Part shown: positions 19,208 through 63,732 of the stretch, one piece after another
Position numbering within the stretch: position 1 is the stretch's first letter
Layout of the letters: each line of letters begins with the position of its first letter
Assembly: GCA_035578175.1 (NCBI GenBank)
Contig: JAQMRL010000003.1
Coordinates: 60,930,672 to 60,994,671 of the forward strand
Direction: 5' to 3'
DNA from: Catonia carolina
Lineage: Eukaryota; Arthropoda; Insecta; Hemiptera; Achilidae
DNA: 64,000 nt
Translations under genes and position numbers: made by a program
The notes under the pieces: model-generated
The model's input: the letters and a program-made list of their open reading frames with translations, nothing else
Told to the model about the DNA's origin: nothing
Databases searched by the model: none

Positions 19208-19499
19208 TCATTTACTACCATTAAGGCTTGGTCCATCGCGTTCACGTTTTACTATTGTGATGTCTGGATTGTTGCTTAAAACATGGCGGGCAGTCGCAAG
19301 GCGATCTGTACCGTCTATTTCGTCGTCATCTTCACCGTCCGATGAGACCGGATCACCTTGCCGTAAAGTCGATAAATAATTCGCCAGTGTTGTTACTGTT
19401 ACATTTAACATTTCTGCTGCACGGAATAACGTTAGCTCTTTGCGCTGAAGTTTCGATAACACCTCCGCAGGCCCTTGTTCTAACCAGAAGTCACGCACC
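19208..19499 (-). CDS. Exon 8 (terminal): second Psq-like HTH and acidic tail
   Basis: Acceptor ATTTCCAG before 19499. Its first G completes the Arg codon, followed by 96 codons and stop at 19208-19210. VRDFWLEQGPAEVLSKLQRK continues into ELTLFRAAEMLNVTVTTLANYL (about 520-566), a second helix-turn-helix of the same kind as exon 7. After it come a DGEDDDEID acidic run and IVKRERDG, which fits a SUMO consensus (hydrophobic-K-x-E) around V-K-R-E. GTG at 19498 is an internal codon, not a start. Confidence 0.92.
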
Positions 19500-20439
19500 C
19501 TGGAAATTAATAATGAAATACTTAAGGTTCGACGTATTTTTCTATATAGTGATAATATTAAAAAAAACCATCTTGTTAGAATAGAATAGAAATTCTGTTC
19601 TCACAGAACTAATACAACATGCAGCAATGCTGCTTACATTGGTGATTTGTCCAATACACATCTTACTTATATTACACAATTTATGATTAAACCAAAAACA
19701 TAAAAACAAAACAAAGCACATAAATATAGGTTTTTTTACTCACACAGAGTGAAAGGCATTGATTTACATTACAGTAGTACAATTATAGGGGGTAATGATG
19801 GGGAGGAAGGCCACGGATAACCGAAATCCACGGTTGAAATGGTGGGAGTACTGACTAAAGCTATTTATCATAGTACTGGATGCTACATTATGTAAAATAA
19901 TTTACTAGGCTTAACGGTTCAAAGTGGATATTCTGCACATGTTTATATTAGGAAATGAATACTTAAAATCCATTGTGAATGTTAGTAATCACAAAAAAAC
20001 CAATTTAACAAAACATCAGTTCAACACATATATTTACTAATGCTACTTATTTAAAGACACACCACAAATAAAACAAAGAAATAAAATTATTTTATAGATA
20101 CTGAAGTCACGAGATTGCCTTTGCGTATGTATGTTTGGGCTGTGAGGAAGGGCAGTGAAATATTTGCAGTGCTGCCAAACTCAACACTGAGACACTACTC
20201 GCACATTTCACTACCATGCAGTTTCTAGATACATTTTGTAAGCTGTGGTTTATTCTGAGAAAATGTTTTCTTCATAAACCTTATAAAAAATAAATATGAC
20301 CTGTAATATTGCTTATAGCATAATTACACGACTAGAAATGTTTGATTTACTGTAATTACGAATGAATCGCCTTTTTTACTATTGCTGTCATCGGCGTTTT
20401 CATTATCAGTCTCTAGTATCTACCTAACCGTTTTCTTTT

Positions 20440-20650
20440 TTTACCAGGTTTCAACAAAACTCTTAAAGAATAGCTTCTTCACGTCCTTAATTTCCTTCTT
20501 TATTTTTTGAATTGTGGAAAAAGAAACATCACAGTAGTTAGCCGCTCGCTCACGATTTTTGTTAAGAGGCACACTTCACAACATTTTATTACATTGCATT
20601 CAGCACTGTGAATAGTTCGACCACGTTTTCGAGAAACCGACATTTGTGTT
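20440..20650 (-). pseudogene. N-terminal fragment of IS630/Tc1-like transposase
   Basis: Minus strand begins MSVSRKRGRTIHSAECNVIK, then after frame breaks ERAAN-C-DVSF-TIQKI-KEIKDVKKLFF and TW..KKK. An N-terminal SRKRGR followed by HTH-like text is how animal IS630/Tc1-like transposases of the type at 30361 begin. Degenerate. Confidence 0.45.
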
Positions 20651-20851
20651 TACGGTAACAAACAGTTATATTCGTACAGTTAACCTACAAAAGGTTCCTC
20701 AATATACTGTATATGCTCTGGGTATAGTATAAGTTGTTATGTTTGTCGTACTGAAATTAAAGCAGTCACGCTAGCGTACTGATGCTTTTCCCCCTTTACC
20801 CCTCGTTGCAAACAAGGGCAAACACGTGACTCAAGTGACTACATATGCCAT

Positions 20852-20997
20852 CTCTGTAGCGTAGTGGTAGGGTGCTAGTCTACAACGCGGAGGTCCCGGG
20901 TTCAATTCCCGGCTAGGGTCTGGAAACCTTCACAAGTTAAAATCCACCATAGTCACTAATAACCGAGCTATTGATGCAACTTTAAATAACCTAAAAA
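20852..20997 (+). mobile_element. tRNA-derived SINE (family B)
   Basis: Box A-like TAGCGTAGTGGTAGGGTGC and box B GGGTTCAATTCCCGGCTAGG in tRNA spacing, then body GGTCTGGAAACC, CAAGTTAAAATCCACC and an A-rich tail. The same body occurs within the pogo element at 52730. A real tRNA is unlikely, because the sequence continues into the shared body. Confidence 0.8.
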
Positions 20998-21743
20998 AAT
21001 AATTATTTTATAGACCACTGAAATAGTCAGTCATTGTTTTCTGCTTCATTGTTTCTTTTTCCTCCTCCTTAAAATAATTGAAGATCGGAGTTTGTGTAGC
21101 ACTAATTAGTCACACAACAGGCTGTTGATATGCACACCATAATACACACACGTCACAAGAAACAGTGTCATTACTACTGTACTACTAAACTAAAGGAGTT
21201 GCAATTTATAAAAAATCATAACACATAATTTTAGAAAGGAATGTACAAGTTGTGAAATAGGGGTTGACGACCTAATAAAATAGACTATGGTTTTCAGTCG
21301 TGAGCCTAATTGCCACTCCTGACCAACCCTCTTTTTTCACCTTCACAAACATGCACTACGTATCTGATGTGCGTGCTTCAATTTTAAAAATGTTTGGTTT
21401 GGCAAAATATTACCCATTAGATCTAAGAGGCTGAATGCGTTGCCTGTTATTTTTAATTACAAATTTAAAATTGAATAAATAGCAACAAAAGTGAACTTCC
21501 TTAGTAATTTTTACTGGTTTTGTACGGTAAATCTTTATGAATTCATTTTTTTACCACCCTGGTTAATCCGCCCCAGGATAATCGATGTACAACTGTATCT
21601 TTTATGGAGAGGGTCCACCATACGATATAGCCGGAAAATTTCTTTATCCTCCAAGTACTCCTTTTCAGAGTAATACACTCTTTCTACTAGAAGATCCCCG
21701 GGAAATATTATTTAGGAAATGAAAATAAAACAAACAAACAAAC

Positions 21744-21963
21744 CTATAAGGATGCTTTAAACATCCATAAGCATCTCTATAACGTCCATAAAGTGTTCCA
21801 TAAGATACTCCCATTAGTTCAGCAGCAACTTTCATTTCTAATTCTTTGTTCTTAATGGCTTCCATTACTCGTTTCGTAAAAGGCTCTTCCCAAAACTGAG
21901 GTCTACGACCACCTTGTGCCATGTAATCATTCATTTTGACAACATCCGAGTATTGACTTAAAT
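21744..21963 (-). CDS. Exon 7: first Psq-type helix-turn-helix
   Basis: Acceptor GTCGTTTCAG before 21963 and donor GTTTGT after 21744. 220 nt, entered with 2 nt of a split Asp codon and left with AG of a split Arg codon. After LSQYSDVVKMNDYMAQGGRR comes the helix-turn-helix: FWEEPFTKRVMEAIKNKELE, then MKVAAELMGVSYGTLYGRYR (about 466-512). The pattern of an acidic or amphipathic helix, AA.. in the turn region, then a V.Y.TL recognition helix matches the Pipsqueak DNA-binding fold. The donor GTTTGT is weaker than those of the other exons. Confidence 0.93.
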
Positions 21964-21999
21964 CTGAAACGACAAAAACAATTTCAAGTTAAACTAAAA

Positions 22000-24018
22000 G
22001 AGAGAAACTAAATCATTTTAAGAGGAGCACACCAATGAACTTGGAATTAATGTAATGAGCAGTAATTTCATACAAAAAAACTGATTTTATCAGAAATACT
22101 CATAATAAAATAAAAAAATATTAACCAAGATAAAGATTAATGTCAATATGCAAATGTCTTCTAACATGGAAACAATATTAATTTACTGTTTACTTCAACT
22201 GAAGCTGTGAAAGCCTAAAAATAATTTTTATTAACTACATCCATGATAAATTAGTTTTTGTGTTCAACTAAAAAAATAATACAAACATTTTTATAATTTT
22301 TTTTAATCCTTCAGCTATGGGTGAATCAAAGTATGAGTTGTTAGTTGTTGCCAGACAGCCATAGCAGTTTTATTTATAAGGCTTTTACACAAACTTGAGT
22401 CATGTTTGTATATTGACTTATGGATGACCTGCATGCGATATCTGTTTACATAAAAATTCAACAATTTAGCCTACCCACCACACTAAAACTATAATAAAAT
22501 ATTTCCCAGTCAATGTATTCTATTTCTGTAAATGCTATTAGTTGTGCTGAAGAATTCTCTACAAAATAAATATAATAATTATCAGTTTCGGACTTACAAT
22601 GACCTCACTGCAATAAGTTTTATCCCATACTGAACTATCCATTACTGTAGCCACTGAAGTGGCTTCGCGCAGCACATGGTTAAAAATGATTATGTCTTTG
22701 CTTGGTCATCTTAAAATTATCACAATAAGTTACAATACAAGTAAAATCAAAAACTGCTATCACTTGATAAGAATCAATAGGCTATTCCAATAAGACTCTT
22801 GTATTTCATGACCCATTTTAAATTAATAAAACTTTTCTTATGAAGGAAAATTACTTTAGTAAAAAATTATTATTATTCCTTTTGACAAGCAACCATACAT
22901 AGCAAACAGAAAGTGTTGGATGAAACAAACTAGTAAAACTTAACCCTTGCTAACCGGGAGGCCCAATATCACTCATTCATCATAATCTTTCTTTACACTC
23001 AATTATCTCCGCAACTATTCATCATTTTCTAACAGGTTTAGTTTTATTAAATAGAAACTTTTTTCTTCTTTCATTTGATGTATCTTGCATATTTGTACAA
23101 TGAAAATTGACGACGTGGTGTTACGCGAAATAAAGAGATTTTTTTTGAAGAGCTAAAATTTGAACACTTTTATCCACAACTTTTCAACAAAAAAAAGATA
23201 TTTAATTGGGAAAGACATCATCAGTTAGCTTTAAATGTAACAATCAAAATCAATAAATTAGAAGGGCCAGTGACAAATTTTAGGACTCTAAAATCGAACA
23301 AAGAAGGTTAATACTACCCATCTCGCCTATTCCTTGGTTAAACCTTACAATTAGCGTCAAAATAAATGATAACAAACATACTTTAATTTATGCTATCCTA
23401 TTTAGAAAAGGATAATACACAAAACAACATGCAGAAAAGAGATAGAACTTTCATAAAAGAGTAAATAAAAATTGAAAAGACACCACATTAATTTGAGGCG
23501 ATTTTTTCCCCATTTTTTTCATCCAGCATGTTACTTTGTTGAACAAAAAAGTGTTATATCTTCTGAATGCATCACATCAATTTACAAAATCTAAATCTAG
23601 TTACTTTTCCAATGAATTGCTTTATTTATGTATATAGCTAAACATATGTTTTTGTATTATTTTAGTGATTTAGTGACACTTTTTCGTACGTATTTTTTGA
23701 GGATACTAAAAGAAAATATTTTTTCTTAATTTTCAATTTGTATTCTGGTCGTAAATGAAAACAGAAAAATTTGGTTCAAATGTTGTTCTAATAACAAATT
23801 CCTTATAAATAAATGGTAATTTTTTGAAATTTTTAGGAATGAAACTAAATGAATGAAATAAAAGAGTTTTTATTAGGCGTAAAATGACAGTCCGCACGAT
23901 CGTTAAAATCTCCATTCTTGTAGAGTTAAAATGTATTATCTATGTAAAAGAGCAATCATAACATTACAATGAACACCTAATTTTTGTGGGAAAACAAATC
24001 ACTGTAATTCAACTTATC
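22000..24018. other. Intron 6 sequence, nothing recognised
   Basis: AT-rich; frames lack motifs. Part of the intron between exons 7 and 6. Confidence 0.45.
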
Positions 24019-24242
24019 TACGGCACACGAAAATAAGCTTCAAGGTCACAGCAGCCAGCTGCAATATTGCCAGATCCCACACTTCACCCCCGCGCACTGC
24101 ACAAAAAGGCAGACGTTCGGTATTCCCTCATCCATCGCATGACAAGGCGTAATATCTGACAACATTGGTAGATGACAATCTTATCAGCAAGGAGGAGCTG
24201 TTAATAGTAAATGACCTTGAAGCTCATTTTTGTGCGACAGAG
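24019..24242. mobile_element. MITE-like element with about 28-bp inverted ends
   Basis: Left end CGGCACACGAAAATAAGC then TTCAAGGTCA; right end is its imperfect reverse complement (TGACCTTGAAGC, then TCATTTTTGTGCGACAG). About 220 bp, no coding, TA close to both ends. Higher GC than surroundings. Confidence 0.7.
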
Positions 24243-24826
24243 GTAATAACATTTTACCAAGTAACACCATTTATACAAGTAAACTGCACTTTTAAACAGT
24301 TATCAATCTTTAATATCAGCTTTAATATCACACATTATTAAAACTCAAACAGAAAATATGTTGAAAACAGAAACCCACATCTAGTAAATATTAGTACCTT
24401 AAGCAGGAATCAAACTTGATGCTTCTGAAAACTACTTTTGGTAGTAAACTGAAAAAACAAAATAAATACTAAGTTCAAAAATAAATCGTTAAAATGCATC
24501 CTCCAGCTTGGACTCAATTCCATTATATAATTTAACGAACCTTTTCAGCTGCCTTGATCCTTACAATCAACCAACAATGCAAGTGAGCATGTATATTAAG
24601 TAAAAATATGCACAGAATGATCAAAAACAAAATTCCGTACACCATGACTAACTCGCACTAAGCTTAAGATAATAAACAATAAACACAATCAATTTATTTG
24701 TTAGAAAATGTTTCACAAATCGAACAATAGTTCACCATTAATAAATGAAACTTTTATATTTTTTTATTCTTTATATTTTACTGTTATTTTTCCATTGTTA
24801 CGGTTATATTGTAATTTTTTGTGACA

Positions 24827-24862
<36 letters not shown>

Positions 24863-26069
24863 GTTTTTATTATAGACTTAGTTTTTTTTTGCTTGGAAGT
24901 AATATAACAGACGAATGCGCTTGAATTATAACAGGACAGTAAACAATTCCAGTAATTTGTTGTTTATCATTGTTTCAGATTGTTTATTTCATATCATTAA
25001 AATTAATGTCTGTGACTAGTTTAATACAACTGTTTGTACTTGCACATGTTTAACTCATCTTCAGTTTCATCCGTTAGCTTTTGGTATAGTATTGGTAATT
25101 TCAATTTTCTTCGTAGACTTAAGTTGAAAATTTTTGTAAACTGTGTTTTGTTAACATGTGTGATAGTGAACGTGTTGAGTTTTTTAAACAAAAAAGCGGT
25201 AAACCATTAAAAGTGGTGTAAAAAGAATTAATTGTTCTAAATGTCTTTAATTTCCTAAGGAAGAATCAAAATTATTTGTTAAATATAATGGTTAAAAAAA
25301 TTAATTAAGGAGTCGCTTTATAAAACAACAATAATTACAAGTAATCTGAACGATATAATTGAAAACGTTTAAAGGATAATGTTTATTTTAGCTGGAAGTA
25401 GATATTTTTATGACGCAATGTAGCATAAAATAATTTTTTTTTTTTTTTGGTTTTAAGTCTGACTATTTAAAATAATTAATTGTAAAATAATTGTCAGGCG
25501 AAGATGTAGATACATGCCAACTTGTGTAAAACTTTCATTTACAATCTATAGGCACTTGCCTCGGGTGGATCAACAGTAGATCAACTTTACTTCAGTGTTT
25601 CGGTGGATACACCAACACCAAGTGTATAAAATTATATGAAACTTTAAGACTTACAGAAGATTTATAGAATCTTCAATCAATGGAAAACTGTTTTATACGA
25701 TAAAGTTTCTTATATTTTAGAAACTTTGATGATGATAGTGGATCCAACGAAACACGTGTCAGATCGTAAGAATCAAGCCAGCTAAAGAGGTTAGTGAAAT
25801 TAAAATACTGAGTTATAAAATTATATTAAACATTAACAAATTCTGGTGTCCTAGGACAACTTATGACTGAAAATACACTTCACAGAAATTATCATTTATC
25901 AGGTTTGTTACAAGTTATCAACAGGGATCAATAGAAATCTTAATGATTTTTAGAAAAGAAGTTCAAATTATTTTACTGGTACATGGCAATCTATTAAAAA
26001 ATTTAAAATTACAAAAATTCTCACTGTTGATGGAAAGCTTCTAAATATTGGTAATAATTGATATCTTAC
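24243..26069. other. Intron 6 sequence, nothing recognised
   Basis: AT-rich. Includes an (ATT)n tract at 24831-24860. No coding signal. Confidence 0.45.
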
Positions 26070-26142
26070 CAGGTAGATGAGCTGGTTGTTCTTGGAAAGC
26101 ACTTCTGTCTTCATCAGCAGCAGGTGGAATATTAAAGCCACT
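26070..26142 (-). CDS. Exon 6: short linker exon (73 nt)
   Basis: Acceptor TTCATTTTTAG before 26142 and donor GTAAGA after 26070. It is open in the needed frame for 24 codons (SGFNIPPAADEDRSAF and on to HLP) plus one G. That G joins AT from exon 7 to make an Asp codon. It is too short to stand out alone. The call rests on good splice sites, correct phase on both sides and composition like the neighbouring linker. Confidence 0.83.
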
Positions 26143-30956: not shown

Positions 30957-31319
30957 ATTGTAATCACTTCTAGAAGAAACATTTCCGACAACATTCGTTA
31001 CTTTTGGAGAGAAATGTTGTTCGTTCTGAAGAGACTTTGGAGTATTGTAATGTGATTCAGCAGCAGGATGAGGTTTCGTACTATAATGTTCAAGCGTATG
31101 TTGATTACTGTGTGGCGTAGAATGCTGTGAATGTGGAGTGGGTGGTTTTAATTTTTTTGGAGGGGGTGGTTCAGAATCAGAGTCCATATCATCAGTCATA
31201 GCACCGCCACCGCCTTCTACACTTCTCCAACTACCTTCACCTTCCGATCTCCAAGAGACTTCAGCCAGACCTTTAATTCGTAATTCTTCTGCAGTTTTCA
31301 ACAACGATGATAAGTGCGA
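30957..31319 (-). CDS. Exon 4: end of BTB domain and Pro/Ser/His-rich linker
   Basis: 121 codons, phase 0 both ends. The acceptor reads TACTTTCAG just before TCG at 31319, and the donor is GTAAGTAA after 30957. The first 21 residues (SHLSSLLKTAEELRIKGLAE, then V) are the final BTB helices. Then come a Gly/Glu stretch, an acidic run (DDMDSDSE), a PPPPKKLKPP patch near residues 299-308 that could act in nuclear import, and a His/Ser/Pro/Gln-rich region without recognisable fold. Confidence 0.94.
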
Positions 31320-32415: not shown

Positions 32416-33113
32416 TGTTAAGGCACGTTTCTTGCTGTAATGTATTCAGATTCCCGCTACCTCGCATTTCAAATTTCCTAAGTAAAATAGTTCCTGTGAC
32501 CTCATTGCATACGTCATTCTTCCTACCCCTACCACTGCTCTATTACTTCCGTCTTCCCCAAACTCTGCACTTGTAACTTAACAGTCGAAGCAACAAGTCT
32601 ATGCACTCTCGTCGTGGTCATAAATGGCGTTTTATGGCCTTTCTTTGTGATGAAAGCCAGGCGTTGGCATTCATTTCGTTTCGATCTCTGCATGAGAACT
32701 CTTATTGTGCTCTTTTCATTTGTGGATTGTGAATTTATAACTGTTTAATTTGCAAATTATGTTCAGTGAGTTTCAATCTACCAACACGTGTTATTGCAAA
32801 ACTAATCAAGGCTTAATCAAGGTAAGTGCAGATATTTGTTGTATTTTCTGTTATTTATAAGTGCAATTCCTGTAATTTCATGTCCCCAATTTCATTCTAT
32901 TGTTCATTATGCAAGTCGTTCTTAATCGCCTTAAACTGCCAATTACAACCAATCAATCGTTTAGTTGTGATTGCCAACTATCTTATCAAGGCAATCTGGT
33001 TCTCCGGAAACAATCGTTTTATTTGCCATTTCGCTAAATTCAATAATCATTCGTCGTGGGTAATTTTTCATTGTCTTAAAATCCAAGGTATCCCTCGCAT
33101 AGGAACCTTAACA
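32416..33113 (+). repeat. 5' LTR of BEL/Pao element
   Basis: 698 bp, begins TGTTAAGGCACG and ends GGAACCTTAACA, so the termini are short inverted repeats (TGTTAAGG/CCTTAACA). Matches 37294-37991 except for one base seen. Internal open frames are incidental. Confidence 0.96.
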
Positions 33114-33115
33114 TT

Positions 33116-33133
33116 TGGTCCATCGCGGGCAGG
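33116..33133 (+). other. Candidate primer binding site
   Basis: TGGTCCATCGCGGGCAGG starts two bases after the 5' LTR. TGG at the start is complementary to a tRNA CCA end, as expected for a minus-strand primer site. I could not assign the tRNA. Confidence 0.6.
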
Positions 33134-33597
33134 ATATTTATCAGCATCTCGTGGATACAGTCAGCTATATTTCTTTATTATCTTGTTAAAAATCGTCATT
33201 ACATGTTATGTAATTGTTACCATTGTGCGTTATATTCTTTTGTTCGTTAACACGGCTAATTTCAACTGTTGTGCAAACCGCTAGACAGGAAGCGAGGGCG
33301 CAAACCACGCTATCTCTGTGACGTCAGACGCTTCGTTCACTCTCTCATAGTGCAGATCAGACCGCCATTGTGAATCAAATCCACTTTGGACACATTTAAA
33401 CTCAGTCTGCGCAGATTCTATTTCATAAGTTTACGCCCATTCTCTCCCAGTTCGTTTCACTCTCTCAAACTGGTTCAGCGCTGTGCATCATCGTCTGCAT
33501 TCCCTCTCTGTGTTATCGTCTGCACGTTGACCTACTCTCAGTCAGCTGATTATTGTTTACATTTTCAACTATACGTTAAATTATTATCTCTTTCAAC

Positions 33598-36500
33598 ATG
33601 GATGATTTACAATTATTGATGCGTAAACGTGAAGTTATCACCAACCACTTAACTCGTTTCGATAATTTTCTTAAAACTAATGCTGAAATTACACAAATTA
33701 AATTACGATTAGACAAATTTTCCGACGTATGGTCCGATTTTGAACAAATTCAAACCAAGATCGAACTTTAACAACCAAACGTTGATTTCGAAACCGAACG
33801 CAATGCTTTTGAAAATAAATACTTTGAATTAATCGGCAAAGCTCAAGAATTGGTTCAGTCGTTGGATTATACCGTTATCATTCCAAATCAAACTAAACAC
33901 AATACCACACCATTAGTTCAGTTACCCCGTATTCGAATCCCGACCTTCGATGGCGATATTACTAAATTTCAAAACTTTGACAGTCTGTTTCGCGACCTAA
34001 TTCATAACAATAATGAATTATCACCTGTGCAAAAATTACATTACCTGCGTTGTTCTTTAATTAACGAACCGTTGCAATTAATTGAACATTTGCCGCTATC
34101 CGCTGATAATTACGTATTAGCTTACAATTTAATAACCGATCGCTACTCTAATGCAAGGCGAATTGCTAATGTGCATTTAACACAAATCTTCAATTTCATT
34201 AAGGCTGAAAAACGTAATTATCAGTCATTAAAACATTTTTTAAACATTCACGAGTCTTCTATTGGCGCGCTACGCCTTTTAGACATCAATCTGCTTGAAT
34301 ATTTACTGTTCGAAATTACTTACTCTAACCTAGACCCGATCACCAAGCAAGCGTTTGAGGATCAAAATACCGCTTCTAAGGTGCCGTCCTATGGCGATTT
34401 AATCTGCTTCGTTACCTCTAAAATGCATTCGTACGAGTTACTTAACTCTTCTCAACCTGTAAATAAAGCACAAGACATTGGCACTACTATTTCAAATGGC
34501 GCTCAACCGAATCTCGTCAAACCGACTGTTCATAAACCGATCTTTCATATAAATAATTCGTCACCTAACTTACCTAGGCGTCAACATTCATTTTTAGTAG
34601 GCAATTCAAGTTCTAGTAATGAGGCTGTAAATAAATGTCATTTTTGTAGTTCATCTGAACACAATGTATTCAATTGTACAGAGTTTCTCGATATGCCCGT
34701 TAATACGCGACAGGAGGCAATTTTTCAAATGCATAAATGCTTCGACTGTTTGGGTAAACATGCAAGGCGTGACTGCAAATCTAATAAAACTTGTCGTGTG
34801 TGTAACTCAGCTAACCACCACACGCTGTTACATTCATCAGATAATAATCAGAATTCAATTTCGCCATCCACCAACTCTGACAGTGTGCATTCATTTTTTG
34901 TTAAATCGAACTCGCTTAAATGTCTTTCGTGCGAATCCAACTTTCACTCAATTCAAAACTGCAGTGAATTTCTTTCACAAACCGTCGATAACCGCTACAA
35001 AATTATTTCTCGGCTTAAACTGTGTTTCGCTTGCTTCGGCAGTCACGACCGTCGTAACTGCAAATCGACTAAACATTGTCGTATCTGTCAGGCAAGATCT
35101 CATAATACGTTATTACATTTTGACCGTAACACTCAACAATCGAATTCGTCTAATGCTTCCGTTGTTAACCCGCATAATTCGCAAACCGCTACTTTGTCTC
35201 ATCTCGTCGAACACCCGGTCAACAATTCACAGTCTACCGGGTGTCTGCTTGCTAATTCTTTGCCGTCGATTCAGGCTACTACTCTCGCAACTCCGCCAAT
35301 TGATTCCTGCGCTACCTGCTCTACTAATATGCCGGTAACTACTAAAAATTCGTCTTCGTCAATTATTGCTGAAAAACCTACCGATTATGCTCTTTCTTGT
35401 CGCCTTGATGGACAAACCGCGCTGTTAGGCACCGCGATTGTTCATGCTGTTAATTCTTCCGGTAAAGCTGTTCAACTTCGCGCTGTGATTGACAATGGTG
35501 CTCAATCCAGCATTCTAACCTATAACGCCGCTCGTAATCTTCAACTCGACATAGCACCCACTACTAAGCGCTTACAAGGCATTTCATCTGAAGTTACATC
35601 CGTCAAAGGCACCACTAACGTTACAATTCTGTCGCCGAAAAATTCAGATTTTCGTTTACCGCTTCAGGCTACAGTTATTCAAAAAATAACAGACCGGCTT
35701 CCTGCTACTCGAATTCATAAATCCGTTGGTGAACAGTTTCCTAAACATCTGCTAGCCGACTTTCGTTTTCGTAGCCCCAATCCAGTAGATCTACTGCTTG
35801 GCGCTGATTGCTTTTCAGAAATACTAGATTTCAGTAAAACTCCTTCAATAAGAGGCGCTCCATCCGCTTTGTTGACTGCATTTGGTTATGTGGTGTTAGG
35901 CAAATTACCCGACATCCAACCACTTAATCCTTTAATAAATAACGCTTCGTTTTTAACAACTGCTCTCTCGAATAATGCTAAATTCTCGTCGCTTGCTACT
36001 GCTGTTGATGCCTCACCGCCTATTGTTGAAAACCGAATGTCAAACACAAATTCGATTTCGCCTCAAACTCTCGCCGTTAATCATCAAACTCTTGTTCCTG
36101 CTAATTCAAAAATTGAGCTCGATGTTACTTTAAACCCCGAGATCAATAAATCTATCGTTTCTACTGTTCACTCGCCTACTTGCTTATTCGTTTCGCCCAA
36201 ATCCGACAACAATTTGGATCACGCTACTGTTTTAACTAATCACGTTTCTTCGGCTTCAAATCGATTCGCTGCTCCATCCGAAATCACCGCTGTTGATTCT
36301 CGTCTCGCTTCGTCTTCCGACTGCGCCAGTCTCTCGACCGATCTTGCTGCTGTTACTCCGTCAAGTCGTCGCTTCAATTCTACGTTGAAGGCTTCCACTG
36401 AGTTATCTCCAATTAATTCTTCGCCAAACTGCTTCGAGTCTTCAGGCATCGCAGACACTTCGCCAATAAAACCTGCTACTCTCGTCTTAGCCGATTCTAC

Positions 36501-36909
36501 GGCTAACCAACCGACTTCGGATCATAACTTCTGGTCGTCTCCCGCACACTCTGTTGATAAACCGCTGCAAATTGATTCGCTGGAAGGTCATCGGCCCTCC
36601 TTAGTAGCTTCACGCTCTGCTAACGCTCTTCGCGCGCCTTATGTCCCTAATGGCGGGCGGCGCCCCAATCGTCGTAAACAGTATTCACAACCGGTGAATA
36701 ATTGTAATTCCAATTCTCGTCTTTCGTTTAACTCTTGGTGTAACCTTCGTACATCTCGCTCAGCACTCCAGCTTCAATCACGGATTCACTCTCAACAAGT
36801 TTGTGAATTTCGCCGTACCGCAATTCAAGATTCTCGTCATAATTGTTCGCCTACTCGTCACTTTGCTTCGCAACCCGCGTACCAGTTAGCTTTGCCTTTG
36901 GGCAACTAA
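33598..36909 (+). pseudogene. Gag-protease frame of BEL/Pao element, one internal stop
   Basis: An ATG at 33598 opens a frame that meets TAA at 33769-33771 (codon 58), then runs open to 36909, about 1,103 codons in all. Seen in order (numbering from 33850): BEL-type Gag core with PRIRIPTFDGD near residue 26; two copies of a Cys/His module near 262-330 and 358-425; retropepsin-like motif VIDNGAQSSILT around D548; DLLLGADCFSEIL and AFGYVVLGKL, typical of BEL protease ends; then roughly 300 residues rich in Ser/Thr/Asn/Pro. Reverse transcriptase should follow and does not. The protease reads DNG where DSG/DTG is usual. The stop looks like a single base change; programmed readthrough is an alternative. 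Confidence 0.9.
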
Positions 36910-37293
36910 CTCTTCTGTTTCACTTCGTTTCCCGCTTACTTCATCTACATTCGTTTTTCGTTTCTTCGTTTGTTTTCTTCGTATCTTCTTCTTCGCATCT
37001 GGTTGTCAGCCCTTGCTGTCAATCACATCAAGATCATTCCGTTTAATCGTTGGCTTCCGCGCAAGCCGTGGAAGATGTTCCGTTCGTCGATTGGCCGGTC
37101 AAACCCGCGCGTTTGTCACGCCACCTCAAGATGTGTCCGTTTCCTCGTTTCTTTCGCTTCTTCTACCTCTGGCTTCGATTCGTCGTTCTTCGTTTTCATG
37201 CTACGTTTTCCGCTCCCTGGTTGCTTCAGGGCGGGCGGCTTCGTTCTTCGCTGCGATACCTTAAATCGCTTACTTCGATTTAGGCAGGCGGTA
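36910..37293 (+). other. Non-coding tail of BEL element before 3' LTR
   Basis: Pyrimidine-rich, more GC-rich than the flanks, with several short overlapping frames but no RT, RNase H or integrase motif. A modest purine-rich stretch (AGGCAGGCGG) abuts the 3' LTR and may be the polypurine tract. Confidence 0.5.
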
Positions 37294-37991
37294 TGTTAAG
37301 GCACGTTTCTTGCTGTAATGTATTCAGATTCCCGCTACCTCGCATTTCAAATTTCCTAAGTAAAATAGTTCCTGTGACCTCATTGCATACGTCATTCTTC
37401 CTACCCCTACCACTGCTCTATTACTTCCGTCTTCCCCAAACTCTGCACTTGTAACTTAACAGTCGAAGCAACAAGTCTATGCACTCTCGTCGTGGTCATA
37501 AATGGCGTTTTATGGCCTTTCTTTGTGATGAAAGCCAGGCGTTGGCATTCATTTCGTTTCGATCTCTGCATGAGAACTCTTATTGTGCTCTTTTCATTTG
37601 TGGATTGTGAATTTATAACTGTTTAATTTGCAAATTATGTTCAGTGAGTTTCAATCTACCAACACGTGTTATTGCAAAACTAATCAAGGCTTAATCAAGG
37701 TAAGTGCAGATATTTGTTGTATTTTCTGTTATTTATAAGTGCAATTCCTGTAATTTCATGTCCCCAATTTCATTCTATTGTTCATTATGCAAGTCGTTCT
37801 TAATCGCCTTAAACTGCCCATTACAACCAATCAATCGTTTAGTTGTGATTGCCAACTATCTTATCAAGGCAATCTGGTTCTCCGGAAACAATCGTTTTAT
37901 TTGCCATTTCGCTAAATTCAATAATCATTCGTCGTGGGTAATTTTTCATTGTCTTAAAATCCAAGGTATCCCTCGCATAGGAACCTTAACA
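37294..37991 (+). repeat. 3' LTR of BEL/Pao element
   Basis: 698 bp, same ends as the 5' LTR and one base different (C at 37819). Followed directly by the GTAGG target duplication. Confidence 0.96.
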
Positions 37992-38848: not shown

Positions 38849-38998
38849 ATTTTCAACATTGATTTCTCCTTTATACATAAATTCAACCAGTGCTTTAATA
38901 TCAGAAAATTTGACATCCTTTAAAATAACAATTGGATTATTTTCTTCATGTTGTGAAAAAATCGCATCAAAATACGTACTGCAGGCTGACAACATCAT
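38849..38998 (-). CDS. Exon 3: second part of BTB/POZ domain
   Basis: 50 codons, phase 0 both ends, acceptor TTTATTTCAG before 38998 and donor GTAAGTAG after 38849. It encodes the central BTB helices: LSACSTYFDAIF, PIVILKDV, ALVEFMYKGEINV. Most family members have VVLSACS at the exon start. Here the first two codons are both ATG (MMLSACS), a conservative change. Joined to exon 2 it gives RAHK-MMLSACS, as expected for the fold. Confidence 0.94.
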
Positions 38999-43113: not shown

Positions 43114-43392
43114 CTTATGAGCACGTAAAGTTTTCCCTTCGCAAGCCAACGTAACATCACAAAAACTTTCTCTTTCCAACAGCTGAGAGAACATTACTTG
43201 TAAATTTGAATGGTGGTACTTCCATCGCAAGCAATACTGTTGAGGAGTCTCCATTTTTCCTGGAGAAGTCATTTCTGCTTGAGGCCAACACTCCGTCTCA
43301 CTTATAGCAGAATCTAGTGTCAGCTCGTCTTCAAACGGAACTTCACGTTTTGGTTGCACCTCGTCAGTCGGGGCCACTTCAACTACATTGGC
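43114..43392 (-). CDS. Exon 2: acidic leader and first half of BTB/POZ domain
   Basis: Acceptor TTGTTTGTAG precedes 43392 and donor GTAATA follows 43114. The exon is 93 codons and phase 0 at both ends. Residues 106-155 are acidic and probably unstructured. From residue 158 the sequence YCLRWKYHHSNL is the hallmark start of the insect ttk-group BTB domain, followed by the FCDVTLACEG strand and RAHK. The reading frame stays open upstream to the acceptor, so the exon does not need its own start. Internal ATGs before YCLRW would serve as starts if an isoform lacked exon 1. Confidence 0.93.
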
Positions 43393-44353: not shown

Positions 44354-44354
44354 T

Positions 44355-49273: not shown

Positions 49274-51015
49274 GGCCATCATAAAAGAATGGTGGGGTTG
49301 CAATAATTAAAACCAAGACAGTAGAGAAATTTTTAGATCGTTTTACTGGTAGCTCTGATCGCCTCACCCAAAAATTTGTGTAACAGCAGTTCTAACCTCA
49401 ACTTAAAGTTCTGTATTGCTCCTTGGGTCTGTTTAGACTATGTTCACTGATAAAGAAAAGGCAAAGTGTGTTTTGTTGGCTGAACTGAGGTCTGTAATTT
49501 CAGTTTAACGTTCATTTGGACGTGATTATGAAAAAAATCCACCATATGATAATAATACACGACACTGGTTCAAACAATTTGAAGAAACTGGCTCAATTAT
49601 CAAGCAGAAATCAACTGGCACACCACGAGTATCAGATGAAACGGTTGAACTACTCAGCCAATTTTCAACTAGAAGTCCTAACAAATCCACCTCTCATCAA
49701 AACTTTCAGTTAGGTATTGTGAAAACAACAATTCACAATGTTTTATACAAAAGATATGGGGAGCTGAAAATGCACATGCAATTTCTGAGAAATGACGTGA
49801 CTCGCCTACTGTTTGGTGTGGTATGATATAAAAAATCATGTAATCAAGCCTTTCTTCATTGCTAAAAAAGTATTAATGGAATTCTGTATCTCGATATGTT
49901 AGACAAATATTGCTTTCTTCAGTCAGATGAACTCAAAAATATACAACAAATTCATTTCCAACATAATGGCGGCGCACCCCCTCTTTTAATGCATTTGTCA
50001 CCCAGGCATTGAATAAAAATTCCTACATCGATGTTGGCCTCAGCAGAGTCCACACCTGACACCTTGTGATTTTTATCTGTTGAGGGTACATCAAAAACAC
50101 TGTTTATTCAAAAAATCTGGTGTGAAACACTCACACAACTTTCTCTTGCCAATGAAAATAATAAACAATATTACCTAATATTACTAATAAAACATTAGAA
50201 ATAAACAAAAAAATAAATCTCAAAAAACATAACCTCATTTTAATCACGAGTGAATGATGCAAATTGAAAATAAACCTCAGTTTGGCTTAATAATATGAAA
50301 AATCACATTTTCACTTTAACTAGGCTCTGGAGAGAAAAATGCTTAAAATAAAAGTTGTAGATAATTTAATTTCCTATTAATTTGATTATATATTCTGTAG
50401 TAGTTAATGCATACTAAGGCCGAAATCTTAAAAAATCCATTTTTTACAAATTGTTATGAAAAAAAAAACAGAAAATTACTGATTACCGCTAAACTAAGCA
50501 TTGTACAAAGAAATCTTTGAATTAACAGTTGTAGATTTTAAAATTTTCTACAATTTTAATTACATACGCTTTAGCATTAAAATGGATATTAAGGCAGCAA
50601 TTATTAAAAAACCAGTTTTTTCTACAAGAGCACAGCCTCCCCAAGAATTTCAGCAGCGATGTTTATGGGTTCAGGGGGGTCTGAAAAATTGTATATCCGG
50701 TAAAAACTCAACATGAAAAGAATACTTTCCTTCCTATATATTCATACAGGCATCAGAAAGTAAAAAAAAATTAGTGACCTAAATCACTTAAAGGAACGAA
50801 TTAATGAAGCATTAACAACCATAACAGAAGATATTAAGTAACAGTTGGACAGAAATTGAGTATCGATCAGACATTTACCGAGAGACCAATGGTGGACGTA
50901 ATGAAATTAATTAGTCATGTAATAAACTGTTTGAGACGACAAATAAACATCAACTGGAAGTATTTCTTTTTTAATTTAATTCATGTTCAAAACCCCACCA
51001 TTATTTTATGATGAC
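49274..51015 (+). mobile_element. DUF4817-type/mariner-like transposon remnant, split by repeat H
   Basis: Inverted ends CATCATAAAA(G/T)AATGGTGGGGTT near 49276 and 51014. Coding starts MFTDKEKAKCVLLAELRSV at 49441, then NPPYDNNTRHWFKQFEETGS, KSTGTPRVSDETVELL, VKTTIHNVLYKRY. A later stretch (FQHNGGAPP, a ...TPDTL.FL segment and K.LF) is the DDE end. At 50110 repeat H intervenes, and past it DLNHLKERINEALTTITEDI and a R.V.IRHLPRDQWW-like tail complete the protein. Many stops; inactive. Confidence 0.8.
50110..50762 (-). mobile_element. Hairpin-ended repeat H, copy 3 (inside transposase remnant)
   Basis: From ATCTGGTGTGAAACACTCAC to CAACATGAAAAGAATACTTT, then a GAAAGTA end. About 650 bp, internally shorter than copy 2. 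Its boundaries coincide with the break in the DUF4817 transposase reading. Confidence 0.82.
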
Positions 51016-54822: not shown

Positions 54823-54911
54823 TGAAACTACACAAACAATTGGGTGGAAATAATAATATTTCCACCCAAAATAGCACACAGAGAACTGCTGCAGCTGTTT
54901 GTGTAGTTTCA
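54823..54911. other. Nested inverted repeats
   Basis: TGAAACTACACAAACA (54823-54838) and its reverse complement (54896-54911) enclose a second pair TTGGGTGGAAAT/ATTTCCACCCAA. Could form a hairpin; function unknown. Confidence 0.65.
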
Positions 54912-56230: not shown

Positions 56231-57148
56231 AAAAAATTTGGTGTGAAACACTCACGAGTTATCTCTTGTCAAAATAAAACATAACCTATGTTTAATCATG
56301 ACTAAACAAAAATGTTTAATCATGAGTATAATAAAAAACATAACCTAATTTAACCACAAGTGAATGACGCAAAATGAAATCAACCTCTGTTCGACTTAAT
56401 AATACAAAAAAAATCACTAATTGACGCTAAACGCTCTATAGAAATAATGCTTGAAATAAAAAGTTGTAAATCTCTTTTATTTCCGATAATTTTAATTATA
56501 TACATTATTACCGTAAAATGCAAACTAAGGCTGCAATATTAAAACATTTAATTTTCTACTGAATTTTTTTAAAAAATATAGAAAATCCCTAATTGTTGCC
56601 ACATTAGGTTGTTGTACAAAAGTTTAAAATACAAGTTGTCGGTACTTTATTGTTCTACAGCTTATATTATATAATGTTTTGCTCTAGAATACATATTCTA
56701 GATAATCTTAAAACACCATATTTAACCACGAGAGCAAAGCCCCTCCCCCCCCCCAACAATTTCAGCCGACATGCCACTTACCCTATCTTGTACAGCATAA
56801 AAATGTAAGTAAATGAGGTGATTTTTTTGTAGTTTTTGAGAAAATAGCAAAAAGTGAAAAATCACACGAATTAACTACTACTTCTTCAGTTCACCAAATT
56901 TGATGGAAACGTTTGTGTCTGGTCCCGTAGTAACACCTAACTTAAGTTTCAAATTTCAACTTCATACTATATTCTGTTCTCGAGATGTTTCGTTCACACA
57001 CACACACACAAAATTTGCTAAAAACATGGTTTTTGGGTTAAGGGGCCTGAAAATGTTTATAATAACTGTTAAAAACTCAATTAGGAAAAATTAAAATGAA
57101 AACAGTATTTTCCTTCTCGATATATTCATATAGACCAAGAGAAAGTAA
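56231..57148 (-). mobile_element. Hairpin-ended repeat H, copy 4
   Basis: Terminal block TTTGGTGTGAAACACTCACG, shared interior (ACTTACCCTATCTTGTACAG, CACACACACACACA), and the other end near AAAACAGTATTTTCCTTCTC then ACCAAGAGAAAGTA. About 918 bp, non-coding. Confidence 0.82.
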
Positions 57149-57856
57149 TAATTTAACAAGGCTACGAGTTACAGGGAATCGGGTTGGTTTTTAATATTTA
57201 TAACATTACAATACAAATTACATACATAAATCAGTTTTGAAGCTAGTAGGTTAGATAGGATAAATAAACAATAGCTACCAAGGTCTGAATGTAAGAAGAG
57301 TTCTTAATGAAATTACTATCATTACTGGGTTTGTTTTTAAGTGCGTGTTTACTAAGAGGGTGAACAATAAATGATTGGGTATGCAAGTTAGCCTAAGACC
57401 ACAGTAAAAACTACTTTAAAAGCTCTGTTCCTAGTCTTCGCTTGTACGACGTCCAATTCATCTTTCTTATGACTTCCTTCATCACTACTTTGGATTGAAT
57501 GGAGTACAGCAAGAATAATAATCTTTCTTATTCTGTTGGATTTCTGTATTGGTACAATACAGTACAGATTGGTACAAAAAATATCAGGTGTTTTGTATCA
57601 ATTACCGTTCAGTAATTATACAGAATGAAAAAAAAATCCTGTTTAGACAGAAGACTATTAGCATCTAGATCTCTGAATATTGGCACGTTAATTTAAGTGA
57701 AACCTAGATAAAATAAGGTATTTTAATTTTGGTCATTTGCACCCAAGTGATTCTAGGTTCTGTCCATTCCCAAATTACTATAGTTCTAAAACTCAGTATG
57801 TACGTTTTAATACCAATAATAAATTCAATACTATATTTAAGAGGCTAAGGTTTTTT

Positions 57857-58232
57857 ACTTTCTCTTGCCTAGATATAAATATATAAGAAGGAAAGTATTG
57901 TTTTCATGTTGATTTTTCAAAATCAAGTTTTCACTCCATATACTCATTTTCAGACCCCCTGAACCCAAAAAACAATGTTTTAGCAATTGGTCTATATGTG
58001 TGAACAAAATATCTCAAAAACGAAACATCATAAGACGTTGAAACTAGAAGTTTAGCATCAAAGAGTGACTTTCCGTAATATTAAGCCAAACTAAGGTTGG
58101 TTTTCATTTTGCATCATTCACTCATGATTATAATTAGGTTGTTTTTTTTTGTTTATTTCTAATGTTAGTTATATTGGTCATTATTTGCATTGGCAAGAGA
58201 ATTTGTATGATTGTTTCACACCAGATTTTTTT
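57857..58232 (+). mobile_element. Hairpin-ended repeat H, copy 5 (internally deleted)
   Basis: Starts ACTTTCTCTTGCCTAGATAT, then GGAAAGTATTGTTTTCATG and a TTTTTCAAAATCAAG block, jumps to the late interior and ends GGCAAGAGAATTTG, TTTCACACCAGATT. About 376 bp. Confidence 0.8.
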
Positions 58233-59140
58233 GTAGAGTTCAGTCTTAGCTCCCACTGGACTAGTCAACTTTAATTTTAATGCAGCTCTCCACGTGTAAA
58301 TTTGCCATATCAAATTTTTTCCAAATTCTTCATTAAGACAGAAAATAGAAAATAACGGTTTTCTATGACCTGGTTATTTAAAAATTTATAGCACAGATTT
58401 CATGCTTCATATCCTGCAAGGACAGATAAAAGGAAAAAGAGCTCCTAGTACAAGAATTTTCTGGCTCACAAATTTAAGGGTCTGGTTGGGTAAGAGCTCC
58501 ACAGAGTTGTTTCAGGCAACAACTGAAAAGATCAGAATGCCATACTGATCACCAACATCCAAATCTCACAAGCACACCAAGAAGATGTCATGCTTAATCA
58601 AGTTATGACCTCCATAAAGATTAAGTAATGCAGTTCTATGAAAGTTACCTTTCGGATGAAATTATACAGTTTTGAAAAATTTCAGAACCATCAGCTTTTC
58701 GCTGAGCCATTCAGAGATTTCAGGGTTTTAGCATAGAAAACAAAAATTTCCCGCCAAACCTGTTTTGAAACCTTAACATAAAAAATGTGACGGCAAAATT
58801 TTCTGTATCAGTTCTCATTTTCAGATTTTGTATTTTAAAAATTCATTCAGCGATGTACAATTCATGTTTTTGTTTTCACTTGTTTAGTTACACTTATTTT
58901 ATCTATTATCGTATTTATAAAGTAGTATGTTTAATAGCTTCCAAAGTCTAAACATCTCCTTTGATATTTGCAACCACAAACTTTTTGTGCTAGCAATAAG
59001 CTTTTGCAAAGCACTGGTGCAATTTCTAATAATATGGTAAATTTTCTAGAACCAGTATATATGCGATACAAATTCCAATGAAGCTCTACTGAGGCAAGCA
59101 GTAATTTTTAAATAAATAAAAATTTCATTTTTTTGGCAAC
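58233..59140. other. Intron 1 sequence, nothing recognised
   Basis: Moderately AT-rich, no motif found. Confidence 0.4.
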
Positions 59141-59144
59141 CTTC

Positions 59145-59335
59145 ATGGTTTAGTGTCAGATTATACTGAACGGCCCAAAGGAATTGTGCTGTGTTCAATT
59201 CCTGGTCAAAATTTCGAAAAGTTAATACAATGTAACCAACCAGTATGGTTGTAGTGTATAACCACTGCAGTTATTAACAAGCAAGCAAGGACTGATCCAA
59301 CTTTTTAAAACAAACTAAAAAAAATTTGATCTATA
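59145..59335 (+). mobile_element. SINE-like element, diverged tRNA head
   Basis: CATGGTTTAGTGTCAG and GTTCAATTCCTGGTCAAAAT give degenerate A and B boxes. The body with GTTATTAACAAGC and the A-rich end resembles the family B layout. Confidence 0.5.
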
Positions 59336-59412
59336 AAAACCGTTATTTAATAGATGAATAAGAGTTTACTTACAGTTAAAAATCTATCATCAAATCTACA
59401 TGCTACAATACA

Positions 59413-59563
59413 GTGCAAAAGTTATTATTGTACTTTCAAATTGTTCACAAATTGTATTTATATTCCAGTTACCAAAGTGAAATTTAATAAACTAATACCT
59501 ACTGTTAATATTTTAATAGAAAGACTAGTGAACAATTTGAAAGTACAATAATAACTTTTGCAC
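59413..59563. other. Perfect 36-bp inverted repeat with 79-bp spacer
   Basis: 59413-59448 (GTGCAAAAGTTATTATTGTA...) is exactly the reverse complement of 59528-59563. Transcribed from either strand it would form a 36-bp stem. The 65-codon frame across it is not taken as a gene. Confidence 0.9.
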
Positions 59564-59604
59564 AATTATTTCAAAGCAATTTTTTATTCCTAATGGTGTA
59601 CATT

Positions 59605-59720
59605 GCAATCTTGTTAAGTTTAAGAACAATCAGCAACCCCATGACCCAATGAGATGATGATGATACATATAAATGTAAATGAGGTGTAGTCTTGAACTGA
59701 TTCAGGCAGACCGTACCTGA
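59605..59720 (-). mobile_element. SINE family E, copy 2 (partial)
   Basis: Reverse of the 39115 copy: CATGACCCAATGAGATGATG and AAATGAGGTGTAGTCTTGAA. Confidence 0.65.
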
Positions 59721-60109
59721 AAGGGTCTTGCTTATTGATAAAACTGGTAATAATTCACACTTTCTTTTGATGCATTCTTAAATCTTACAATAATATAAAA
59801 ACAAAAAGCAAGATAATTATCAGAAACTATCGATAATGGTTGCACCTCCATGATCAGCTGATAAACAACATACCTGGATACCATAGTAAAAGAGAATTGG
59901 AATAATACTCAAGAAATCTCAAGTGTGGAATTGGTAAAGCAAGATATATATGCCTTAATCAGACTGATTAATAAATTCAAAACCTATAACCTGCAGCAAC
60001 TTATCATGAAAATTTGTACGTTTAGATTCTATATACAGTATTCTCCATCTTCGTCTACGATGTAAAGTCCTGAACACTCAATGAAGCTATTACTAAACAA
60101 ACTAGAAAC

Positions 60110-60470
60110 TTTTCATACATGGATAATATGGAACGACCATACAACCAGTACCAAAGAATTAAAAAAAGCAAAGAGATCAAGAACACCATTAAAGACTGTA
60201 AGCTCCAATATTTCAGACATAATGAGAAATGAAAGCACAAAACATGAAAGGAAAGGGCAAACGTGGTCCAGAATGAAAAAGAATACCTTGTTTGCAGAAC
60301 CAGAATGAGTTCTATGGAAAAACTTCCAACAAATTGTTCAGAGTTACAACTACCAAAGTGAGAATAGCCAATAGCTTTCTCGATGGCTAATAGCCGATAG
60401 CTTGAATAGTTAATAGCTAACATCCGAAACGGATAAAAACCATAAGAAAAACAGTAATGTTGTCATGAAG
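60110..60470 (+). mobile_element. LINE 3' remnant
   Basis: IKNTIKDCKLQYFRHNEK, later TTTKVRIANSF. The pattern (IK.RRLQYLGHI.R ... AAVSKVRIANMIANL) is a common insect LINE C-terminus. A short internal repeat (AATAGC / GATAGC) follows. Degenerate. Confidence 0.6.
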
Positions 60471-63417
60471 TCCACCTCTAGCAATTTAATTTCATGGGTC
60501 TGCTAATAATTTATAAAGAACCAATAAGTTGAAAGTTACGAATTGGGAGTAGAAAAGCAAAACTGTATGCCTACACATGCACTTGCATGCACAAACACAC
60601 ACAATACACCAAGAAAACTCTGCTTCGATACACAAATGTTACTGTGTAAAAACTTCACATTTTACTAATGTTATTTTATGAACTTCCTCTTAAAGATGCT
60701 TTCACTGTGTGGAAGCAGCAAGGCTCATGTAATTTAACAAAACCTAGGTTTACGATTGCAGTGGCTTAGCTATAGACAGTTTAGGATATGCTGAGCGGAC
60801 ATTCCTACTTTGGAAAAAATACACTGTTCCAAAACCTAATGACCTTTAAAACCAGACAGAGGAATTGAATGAAGAATTGATTCCAACATCATGCCATTTC
60901 AGAAGATTTTGCATACAGAATATTAATTACAGAAATGAGCACCAAATCAGAATGTTTAAGTTCTAGTTTTATCGCTACATATAATTAACACCATCTTTAT
61001 TCGCATTAACCATAAAGAAACATTTCAATCTACAATTTTTGTACAACAGTTTGCCAACCGTAATTCAAATTAAGTATTTATAATTTCATACCAAGATATT
61101 GGTAATGGAATAACCAAAAACGTAAAAGAATGACATTAGACCTTAAGATTAGAAATTGATAACAGTCATATATTTAAAAATTATATTAACTGATTGTCCA
61201 TTCAACAAATGATTTTCAATTAATTTCTCAAGTTAGTTTAGTATTCTGGAATTTTCTCCAGTACATCTCGATAATCACACACACTCATTTCTGTCCTTAT
61301 TCTTCTTACAGAAGTACAAGATACTCCAAATTATACACAAAGTACAGTAAGGTATAGGACTAACTGTCAACATTACATCTAAATAAGATTCCATTTTATA
61401 AAAGTTTTATTTAAAGTAAAAATTTAAATTTTATTTTAAAGTAAAAATTTAATACAACAGATGTACCAGAAAATTATGAAAACGTTGCAAAAGTTATATA
61501 CCATTTAAAACTTTATCAACTAGAATTTAAAATCAGTAAGACAGCTTAAAAAACACCAAAATTTTTTACACAACTGGTAAAGCTATTTAAGTGCAATGTA
61601 ATCTGAAAAAAATTTCAAAATGGTGGACCTATACCCAGGTGCAGTGTAATATCACACATATTTCATTTTACAATATAGACCTGATTATAACTTTTTAACT
61701 ACTATATTGTTACAACAATACATTTAAAAAAGAGCAGAGGAATTAAAAATTTTACCTAAACTATTAGTTTAAACATGTCGTAACAATAAAAACACATTTG
61801 AGATTTAATCCTTCATAACTTTAAAGTTTTTTTTCTCGTAAATGACAGATAAAAATCCCCAACCGCGGACAAATTGTTACTATATTTAAGAAGAGAAATA
61901 CTCTTGACAAAAATACAAAATAAGGTTTAACAACGATGTAACAAAAAATGTTTAGATGCTACAAGTTGTGTAAAGAAAGTATGATGTTAACTGAAACTAA
62001 CCTAACTCTCCTATAAAATGCAGGCTGATATACAATCAGATAGGTAAATATGCCTCACACAACTAGTACAAAACACACTTCACATTATTCAAAAAAAAAT
62101 AATGAAGGACCTAACATAATACAACAAACACAAGCAGATGTAACATAAATTATATTTTATATAATTAATAAAATCATTAACAACAAAATTTTAGTTACAT
62201 ACCAACATTAGTTCAATTAAACCAATTTCATTTGATAACTGTTTAACTTTAAATACATTCAATTACATAATTATCTAGAACTTATGTTACTTATAAATAG
62301 GCAAATGTTTACTGAAAATAAATTTGACAGGACATTTTTTTACTTCATACATTTACATCTATGTAAAAGATAATTTTTACTTTTAGCAGACAGGAATAGT
62401 ATAATGTCATTAATTTCAAAACTGTTAATCTGTAAATTATAAAATTTCAGTCCTTATTAATAAATGAAAAGTTAAAAATAACCTCTTATGACAATAAAAT
62501 ATTCAGTTTAAAAATTATTGATTTGATTAGTCAGGTAAAAATTCTGAATAGTAATAAAATGTTTCTATGTGTAGTTAGGTTAACTGTACATGTTTACATA
62601 AATACCTTGTGGAATGTAACATCTGCCAGAACATTCACAAATCAGAAAACCCCAAACGTAGAACACAAAATGCATTACTAAATCAAGCTTCAAATAAACG
62701 ATCTTCATAAAAAAAACTAACACTTAACAAAATAAACTACGTACAGCACAAAAGTAAACCGACAATAAAAATAATCAATCTGTCATCTGCTAATACGATT
62801 CTACACATGTGACTGATTCATTAATACGTTAGATAGAAAACAAAATGCAGTTCAGCTAACGTAAATTCAATAAAAAAATGGAAAAAGGACAAATGAAATT
62901 TTAATACCTGAAATTTTAATACGCTATTTACTTTTTACACTTTAATCGATTTTGCAAAACAGCTCAGTTTTTAATTCATACACCCAAATAATTCAATACA
63001 CGATTCGTAAATATCTACAATTTTTTAAAAACACTAATGTCGGACGGAATTAAATTACGGTATTGATGTCGAAAAATGAGCAGACATCCTCTGGTAATTA
63101 ATTAAGAACAAACTGTAAACGTGACGAAAGCAAATTTTTTAGGTCGTACACCATCAATTTAACTTAACCCCTCCTCTAAAAAAATCCAATATGCGTTCAC
63201 TCTTTTCACTCACTACAAGTTAATATTGAAATTTTAATAATACGAATATTAAAAACAACAAAATTTAAGATTTTCATTCCAAACAACGTGAAAAGAGAGA
63301 AAGGACACGTCCTTTCTGTTTACAAGATTTCTCGTTAAACCTCAAAATACCAACAAAAATATTTTCCAAAATCAACTAATTAAGAGCATAACATAAAATA
63401 TAATTCTTTGTACTTAC
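60471..63417. other. 5' part of intron 1, nothing recognised
   Basis: AT-rich, a short (CA)n at 60590-60605, no coding motif or repeat boundary. Confidence 0.45.
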
Positions 63418-63732
63418 GCTAATGTTAAAAACCCGATTTCGATTATTCGGGTAGAGAAAATGGAAAAGTCCCTGCGTAGGCCAACCCTGCCCCGTAGACG
63501 TTTCTCTTGCTCTATTTTCCTGCTGTTCTTTAAGAAAGTTATGTCTTTTCCCCTTCCCATGAGCTTTCACATCATTAAGTCCTCCATGACTTACTGGGAA
63601 CACTTTCTCACATAATAAGCAATATGCTTTATGTTTATCTTCCTTCACTGAAACTAGCCACGATGAAAACTCATTATTTGACAACCATTCGGTAACAAAC
63701 TTGCAAAGACGGCGTTTCTCGGGGCGCGCCAT
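63418..63732 (-). CDS. Exon 1: N-terminal BED/hAT-type zinc-finger module
   Basis: 105 codons from an ATG with A at -3 and an in-frame TAA 12 nt upstream, ending at a consensus donor GTAAGTA (63417-63411). The module shows W16, W25, then C38-x2-C41 and H58-x5-H64, with basic residues around the second histidine. This layout (EW...F..W, KAYC..C, G.L..H..GK.H) resembles BED/TTF-type fingers attached to hAT transposases and to many domesticated insect genes. The exon ends in phase 0, matching the next downstream acceptor on this strand (exon 2). Alternatively it could be the first exon of a separate gene whose other exons I do not see, but nothing else compatible was found on this strand in the 20 kb between. 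Real exon: fairly sure; linkage to BTB: probable. Confidence 0.72.

Follow-up and report, generated by a model that had tools for sequence, protein, structure and literature searches.

How does an insect regulator with a BTB domain come to carry, ahead of that domain, a zinc finger of the kind found in transposases? The question is raised by one gene in a 64,000-nucleotide stretch of Catonia carolina DNA (contig JAQMRL010000003.1; the whole stretch is called the window). The initial annotation of the window, made from its letters alone, described a BED/hAT-type finger joined to a BTB and double-Psq protein, and suggested that transposon sequence had been captured as an alternative N-terminus. 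The observation itself is confirmed and that reading as a whole is partly supported, with use of the decisive splice junction read from orthologous sequences. Beyond it, the fusion appears to be of great age and wide distribution, the Pfam family nearest to the finger is zf-C2H2_12 and not BED, and relatives carry other transposase-type heads. The long form of the protein probably owes its zinc finger to an ancient hAT insertion upstream of the BTB gene.

The gene lies on the minus strand, from 63732 to 19208, and its eight exons join in frame through introns that are all GT-AG (7/7) to give 613 codons, with the stop at 19208. The encoded order is zinc finger, BTB, and then two helix-turn-helix units (HTH1 and HTH2). 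This structure comes from comparing the window with the annotated protein P0001 of Lycorma delicatula, in which 554 of 613 aligned positions match in an alignment that runs end to end. Lycorma, which we take to be a planthopper, is placed in Fulgoridae. Exon 1 (63418..63732) has an ATG start, encodes the finger C-x2-C-x16-H-x5-H (residues 38, 41, 58 and 64) and ends at the donor GTAAGT in phase 0; 104 of its 105 residues are those of P0001. Exon 2 (43114..43392, phase 0/0, 89/93 as in P0001) follows a TTTGTAG acceptor, starts at 43392 and has no stop before the BTB; it holds a linker, internal ATGs right before the BTB, and the BTB start, which reads YCLRWK. The finger with its strong phase-0 donor and the phase-0 acceptor had both been described correctly in the initial annotation. 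Exon 3 (38849..38998) supplies the middle of the BTB and matches P0001 throughout (50/50), and exon 4 (30957..31319, 96/121) the end of the BTB and a linker. Two short exons that were absent from the initial annotation, found through P0001, continue the linker: exon 5 (29179-29030, 34/50) and exon 6 (26142-26070, 21/25, phase 1 at its end). They are needed because the phases at 30957 and 21963 would otherwise not match. HTH1 occupies exon 7 (21744..21963, 73/73), and HTH2, the C-terminus and the stop codon lie on exon 8 (19208..19499, 87/96).

It is very likely that the junction from exon 1 to exon 2 is used in Catonia carolina, because the annotated Lycorma protein spans it with nearly all residues of both exons. 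A search for the same domain order in related insects, foreseen in the initial annotation, took residues 1-150 of the joined protein as query and kept 8 proteins from 55 candidates. All 8 have the finger, the BTB and both HTH units in the same order; they come from Lycorma, Laodelphax, Nilaparvata, Clastoptera, Homalodisca, Macrosteles, Bemisia and the cricket Gryllus. With P0001 across the junction and the order shared by all 8, the junction is not a product of chance.

The reach of the fusion is wider than these species. A query with the two HTH units of the cricket protein gave 294 proteins, and the best 120 of the 294 were classed by the sequence that precedes the BTB. In this set the finger stands ahead of the BTB in 19 proteins, a non-finger extension of at least 60 amino acids in 6 and fewer than 60 amino acids in 84, while 11 have no readable BTB start. 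The finger carriers beyond the species of the first search are Periplaneta, Diploptera (twice), Cryptotermes, two psyllids, Cephus, Athalia, Neodiprion, Belonocnema and one unnamed protein. We take Periplaneta and Diploptera to be cockroaches and Cryptotermes to be a termite; the carriers cover Blattodea, Orthoptera, Hemiptera and Hymenoptera, orders that we assign from the genus names except in the case of Lycorma. By the same kind of group label, no beetle, aphid, thrips, louse, bee or ant stands by name among the 18 named carriers of this set, and no fly ortholog was identified. Since the finger occurs in four insect orders, the fusion, judged from sequence, is old. A recent capture is ruled out by the same distribution, which suggests an origin in an ancestor close to the base of Neoptera, together with later losses or with isoforms that lack annotation in many species.

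In all five species compared, conservation is higher in the finger core than in the linker that follows it, which speaks for a functional finger. The identities of core and linker are 44/61 and 23/69 in Periplaneta, 44/61 and 14/78 in Gryllus, 46/61 and 15/56 in Bemisia, 39/61 and 21/82 in Cephus, and 53/61 and 44/81 in Nilaparvata. Separately, the Eretmocerus homologue P0063 has an annotated C-terminal Nanos RNA-binding domain (expectation value, E, 7e-24), possibly an artefact of gene joining during annotation.

Where such a finger might have come from is indicated by the genome of Catonia carolina itself. A search of its 1.47 Gb with the finger exon, at E up to 10, gives one perfect match, which is exon 1 itself, and 34 weaker ones, five of them with E below 0.01. 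Twenty of the 34 fall within open frames of at least 500 amino acids, several of which are repeated (nine of 648 amino acids and five of 678). Three transposase-like families, L014, L015 and L016, were read at full length. L015 is clearly a hAT family: its open reading frame (ORF), 667 amino acids from the ATG and 678 from stop to stop, has the hAT dimerisation domain Dimer_Tnp_hAT above the cut-off (E 4e-6) and a Hermes match in the same region (E 4e-4), and frames of 678 amino acids occur at five genomic places. The L015 element (111-3018; G000 C46) has perfect 14-bp inverted repeats flanking the ORF, and CCTCTACA is present at both sides, sharing two bases with the left arm; because of this overlap the duplication is 6 to 8 bases. 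In the genome search the L015 finger matches exon 1 with an E of only 0.04. The best finger match of the 34 belongs to L016 (E about 1e-5), whose resemblance to L015 amounts to 22 percent (E 2.5e-16) and which has no hAT match in a Pfam scan. L014 is like L015 over its whole length (E 1e-39); its Pfam hAT match is weak and under the cut-off (E 0.0024), and it has no transposase match in the PDB. Four truncated transposase-like ORFs were also scanned and have no hAT domain. Another related finger sits in a 181-amino-acid ORF with no transposase domain (L006 1327-1872, minus strand; G000 C1 near 421295263), possibly another host gene with the finger.

The host and element fingers were compared as profiles with hhalign, ten host fingers against the fingers of L014, L015 and L016, giving a probability of 99.0 and a score of 89.0 over 61 columns. 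When the columns were shuffled 200 times with the four C and H columns fixed, the top score was 23.3, so the likeness exceeds what shared metal ligands give. Homology of the host finger to the N-terminal finger of hAT transposases is thereby supported, in line with the hAT tie of the initial annotation. A finger tree did not separate transfer from element to host from transfer in the other direction, and a protein search with the finger alone has no transposase among its matches. In the ortholog P0001, Pfam finds no hAT dimerisation domain at E up to 0.1, and the gene in the window is not a hAT transposase.

The finger is not well described as BED, the label first given to it. Of 10 ortholog fingers, 8 match Pfam zf-C2H2_12, with 7.3e-5 as the best E, the Catonia carolina finger itself giving E 0.0018, below the cut-off; zf-BED (PF02892) is matched by 1 of the 10, at E 0.051. 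By these profile matches the finger is nearer to zf-C2H2_12 than to BED, and the BED assignment is unsupported. An AlphaFold model of the finger, with block means of 71 to 87 in predicted local distance difference test (pLDDT) over residues 11-70 and an overall mean of 67, shows two strands, a helix and, behind that, a long helix. In fold comparison spliceosomal and TUT fingers appear to be closer to the model than BED is, with no Foldseek match at E of 0.001 or less; JAZ fingers, which bind double-stranded RNA, are also among the predicted neighbours of the model. Sequence searches of the PDB with the finger gave one and three matches, none of them convincing.

The body behind the finger is a BTB protein. 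BTB (PF00651) is recognised on the exon 2 piece with E 1.7e-4 (22.2 bits against a cut-off of 20.5) and in P0001 with E 6.5e-28. Its YCLRWK is near, and not identical to, the FxLRWN of the Tramtrack group as given in the available portion of PMC11426971. The two C-terminal units are repeats of one another (hhalign probability 97). The order finger, BTB, Psq, Psq proposed by the initial annotation stands in both the 613-residue model and P0001; the Psq label is less secure, as a Pfam scan at E up to 1 assigns neither HTH1 nor HTH2 to HTH_psq (PF05225), and hhalign links them weakly to the Psq heads that relatives carry (probabilities of 58 and 40 percent). The structure model of HTH1 is helical (mean pLDDT 87.7) and its neighbours appear to be HTH proteins in general; no Foldseek match reaches E of 0.001 or less, and the first row is the HTH of LCoR at a non-significant E of 1.7. 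The units are termed Psq-like here.

Other heads stand at the position of the finger in some relatives, here known from annotated protein models in the same set of 120. Four of the six other extensions are HTH heads from transposase-related families: CENP-B_N in Zootermopsis P0010 (E 3.3e-12) and HTH_psq in Bacillus P0018 (E 8e-10), Diprion P0052 (E 6e-13) and Neodiprion P0094 (E 9e-13). The precomputed Pfam annotation agrees and has CENP-B_N or HTH_psq in no further row of the set, CENP-B_N being confined to Zootermopsis. Both families are tied to pogo-like transposons. For the Psq family this tie is described in the portion of PMC10027918 available. The Neodiprion proteins P0092 (finger, isoform X5) and P0094 (Psq head, isoform X2) share one LOC number, differ directly upstream of ENKLVVRQ and then run through 316 identical residues; the unnamed protein P0054 has a third, short start joined at the same point. 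Cryptotermes P0013, which begins at the BTB, and P0015, which has the finger, are nearly the same in the remainder and apparently come from one gene. Since these proteins are known from annotation, Neodiprion offers a good case for alternative first exons, and the other insects no more than a suggestive one.

For Catonia carolina, the Zootermopsis CENP-B_N head and the Psq heads of Bacillus, Diprion and Neodiprion were searched against the window with tblastn (best E 1.7), and the Zootermopsis, Bacillus and Diprion heads also against the window with 200 kb upstream and 20 kb downstream (best E 0.41). With no good match in either search, the finger is the only head seen at this locus; the alternative N-terminus of the initial annotation is supported in other insects, by the Neodiprion and Cryptotermes pairs. 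The heads of the relatives, together with the two Neodiprion isoforms, suggest an exchangeable-head slot. Tentatively, and with rather less assurance than for the hAT origin, the 5' end of the gene may be a receiving slot, where in the course of insect evolution at least three transposase-type heads (hAT-type finger, CENP-B_N and Psq-type) each became an alternative first coding exon ahead of one shared downstream exon, as interchangeable DNA-reading heads on one BTB body.

In the course of events that we favour, a hAT element or a hAT-derived gene would have landed upstream of the BTB gene in ancient times. With it would have come a first coding exon ending in a phase-0 donor, and splicing linked this exon to exon 2. 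Could exon 1 instead lie outside the BTB transcript, as a transposon remnant or a separate upstream gene? The 20-kb intron behind it would suit such an arrangement. Read-through in P0001 and the single perfect genome match of exon 1 nevertheless rule it out for practical purposes, and with the common order of the 8 proteins they make it very improbable. A different origin would start from a common C2H2 finger of the host, of the U1-like or zf-C2H2_12 class, that became a first exon by exon shuffling and is shared with hAT elements through older descent or through uptake from host to element. This is unlikely: the 20 non-self matches in long, often repeated frames include one family that is clearly hAT, and the other heads at the same place also come from transposase-related families.

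In the long form, the finger would contact DNA, and the BTB may keep several chains together so that finger and HTH units bind cooperatively, by analogy with the hexamers of the Tramtrack group. The long form would then read DNA with both ends and the short form with its HTH units, and the targets would shift with the first exon used (the finger, another head or no head). The predicted fold likeness to spliceosomal, TUT and JAZ fingers and the H-x5-H spacing would also be consistent with a finger that no longer binds DNA and serves as a protein- or RNA-binding module. We regard that as quite unlikely, and prefer a DNA-contacting finger of hAT origin.

The window holds other elements. Positions 32416-37593, on the opposite strand within the intron that separates exon 3 from exon 4, have a DUF1759 match (E 1e-24) and weak aspartyl protease matches, enclosed by two identical 300-nucleotide direct repeats 4878 bases apart. 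The element is presumably BEL/Pao-like, and the identity of its repeats points to a young insertion. A short plus-strand ORF at 49509-49826 has no Pfam match; we take it to resemble the HTH part of a transposase. Scanned with Rfam at gathering scores, the window gave no match. Outside the window, L012 has a short minus-strand ORF (4312-4524) that is transposase-HTH-like, with a weak HTH_32 match.

The gene may be set beside several known systems, as far as the available portions of the cited papers describe them; in the open-licence papers searched, no account of such a fusion was found. Tramtrack-group (TTK) BTBs form hexamers and are mostly N-terminal, with CG6118 and bric-a-brac2 as exceptions (PMC11426971). 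The Catonia carolina protein is like the HTH/Psq factors of that group in having a BTB followed by HTH units, with YCLRWK in place of the typical FxLRWN, and departs from their norm in its finger exon ahead of the BTB and its variable N-terminus. ZBED and other domesticated hAT genes (PMC10027918) likewise have a hAT-type finger within a host gene; unlike them, the present gene has no transposase or hAT dimerisation domain, and its finger is not Pfam BED.

A host domain and a transposase-related domain in one protein fit the pattern of host-transposase fusion genes, to which the gene appears to belong. SETMAR and KRABINER are such genes, and they too unite a transposase part with a host regulatory domain; for tetrapods, capture by alternative splicing is described, with hAT among the sources (PMC8616336, PMC12062965). 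The tetrapod survey differs in that the host part here is a BTB and the carriers are insects of several orders. The vertebrate ZBTB11 family, nearly all chordate, has an N-terminal integrase zinc-binding domain, a BTB and a C-terminal zinc finger array (PMC12062965). It shares with our gene a mobile-element-like zinc finger ahead of a regulator's BTB, although the finger here is hAT-type rather than integrase-type and HTH units take the place of the array. Caenorhabditis F-box proteins carry a Mos1-type HTH which, by a section heading of the same paper, has no part in DNA binding (PMC12062965); they resemble this case as invertebrate protein-interaction genes with a captured transposase DNA-binding domain, with an F-box where the insects have a BTB. 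Fusions that link the DNA-binding part of transposases to host regulators have been surveyed best in tetrapods, and the gene described here adds an insect case that extends over several orders; if the slot reading is true, it would offer one locus for comparing how several captured heads alter the targets of one regulator.

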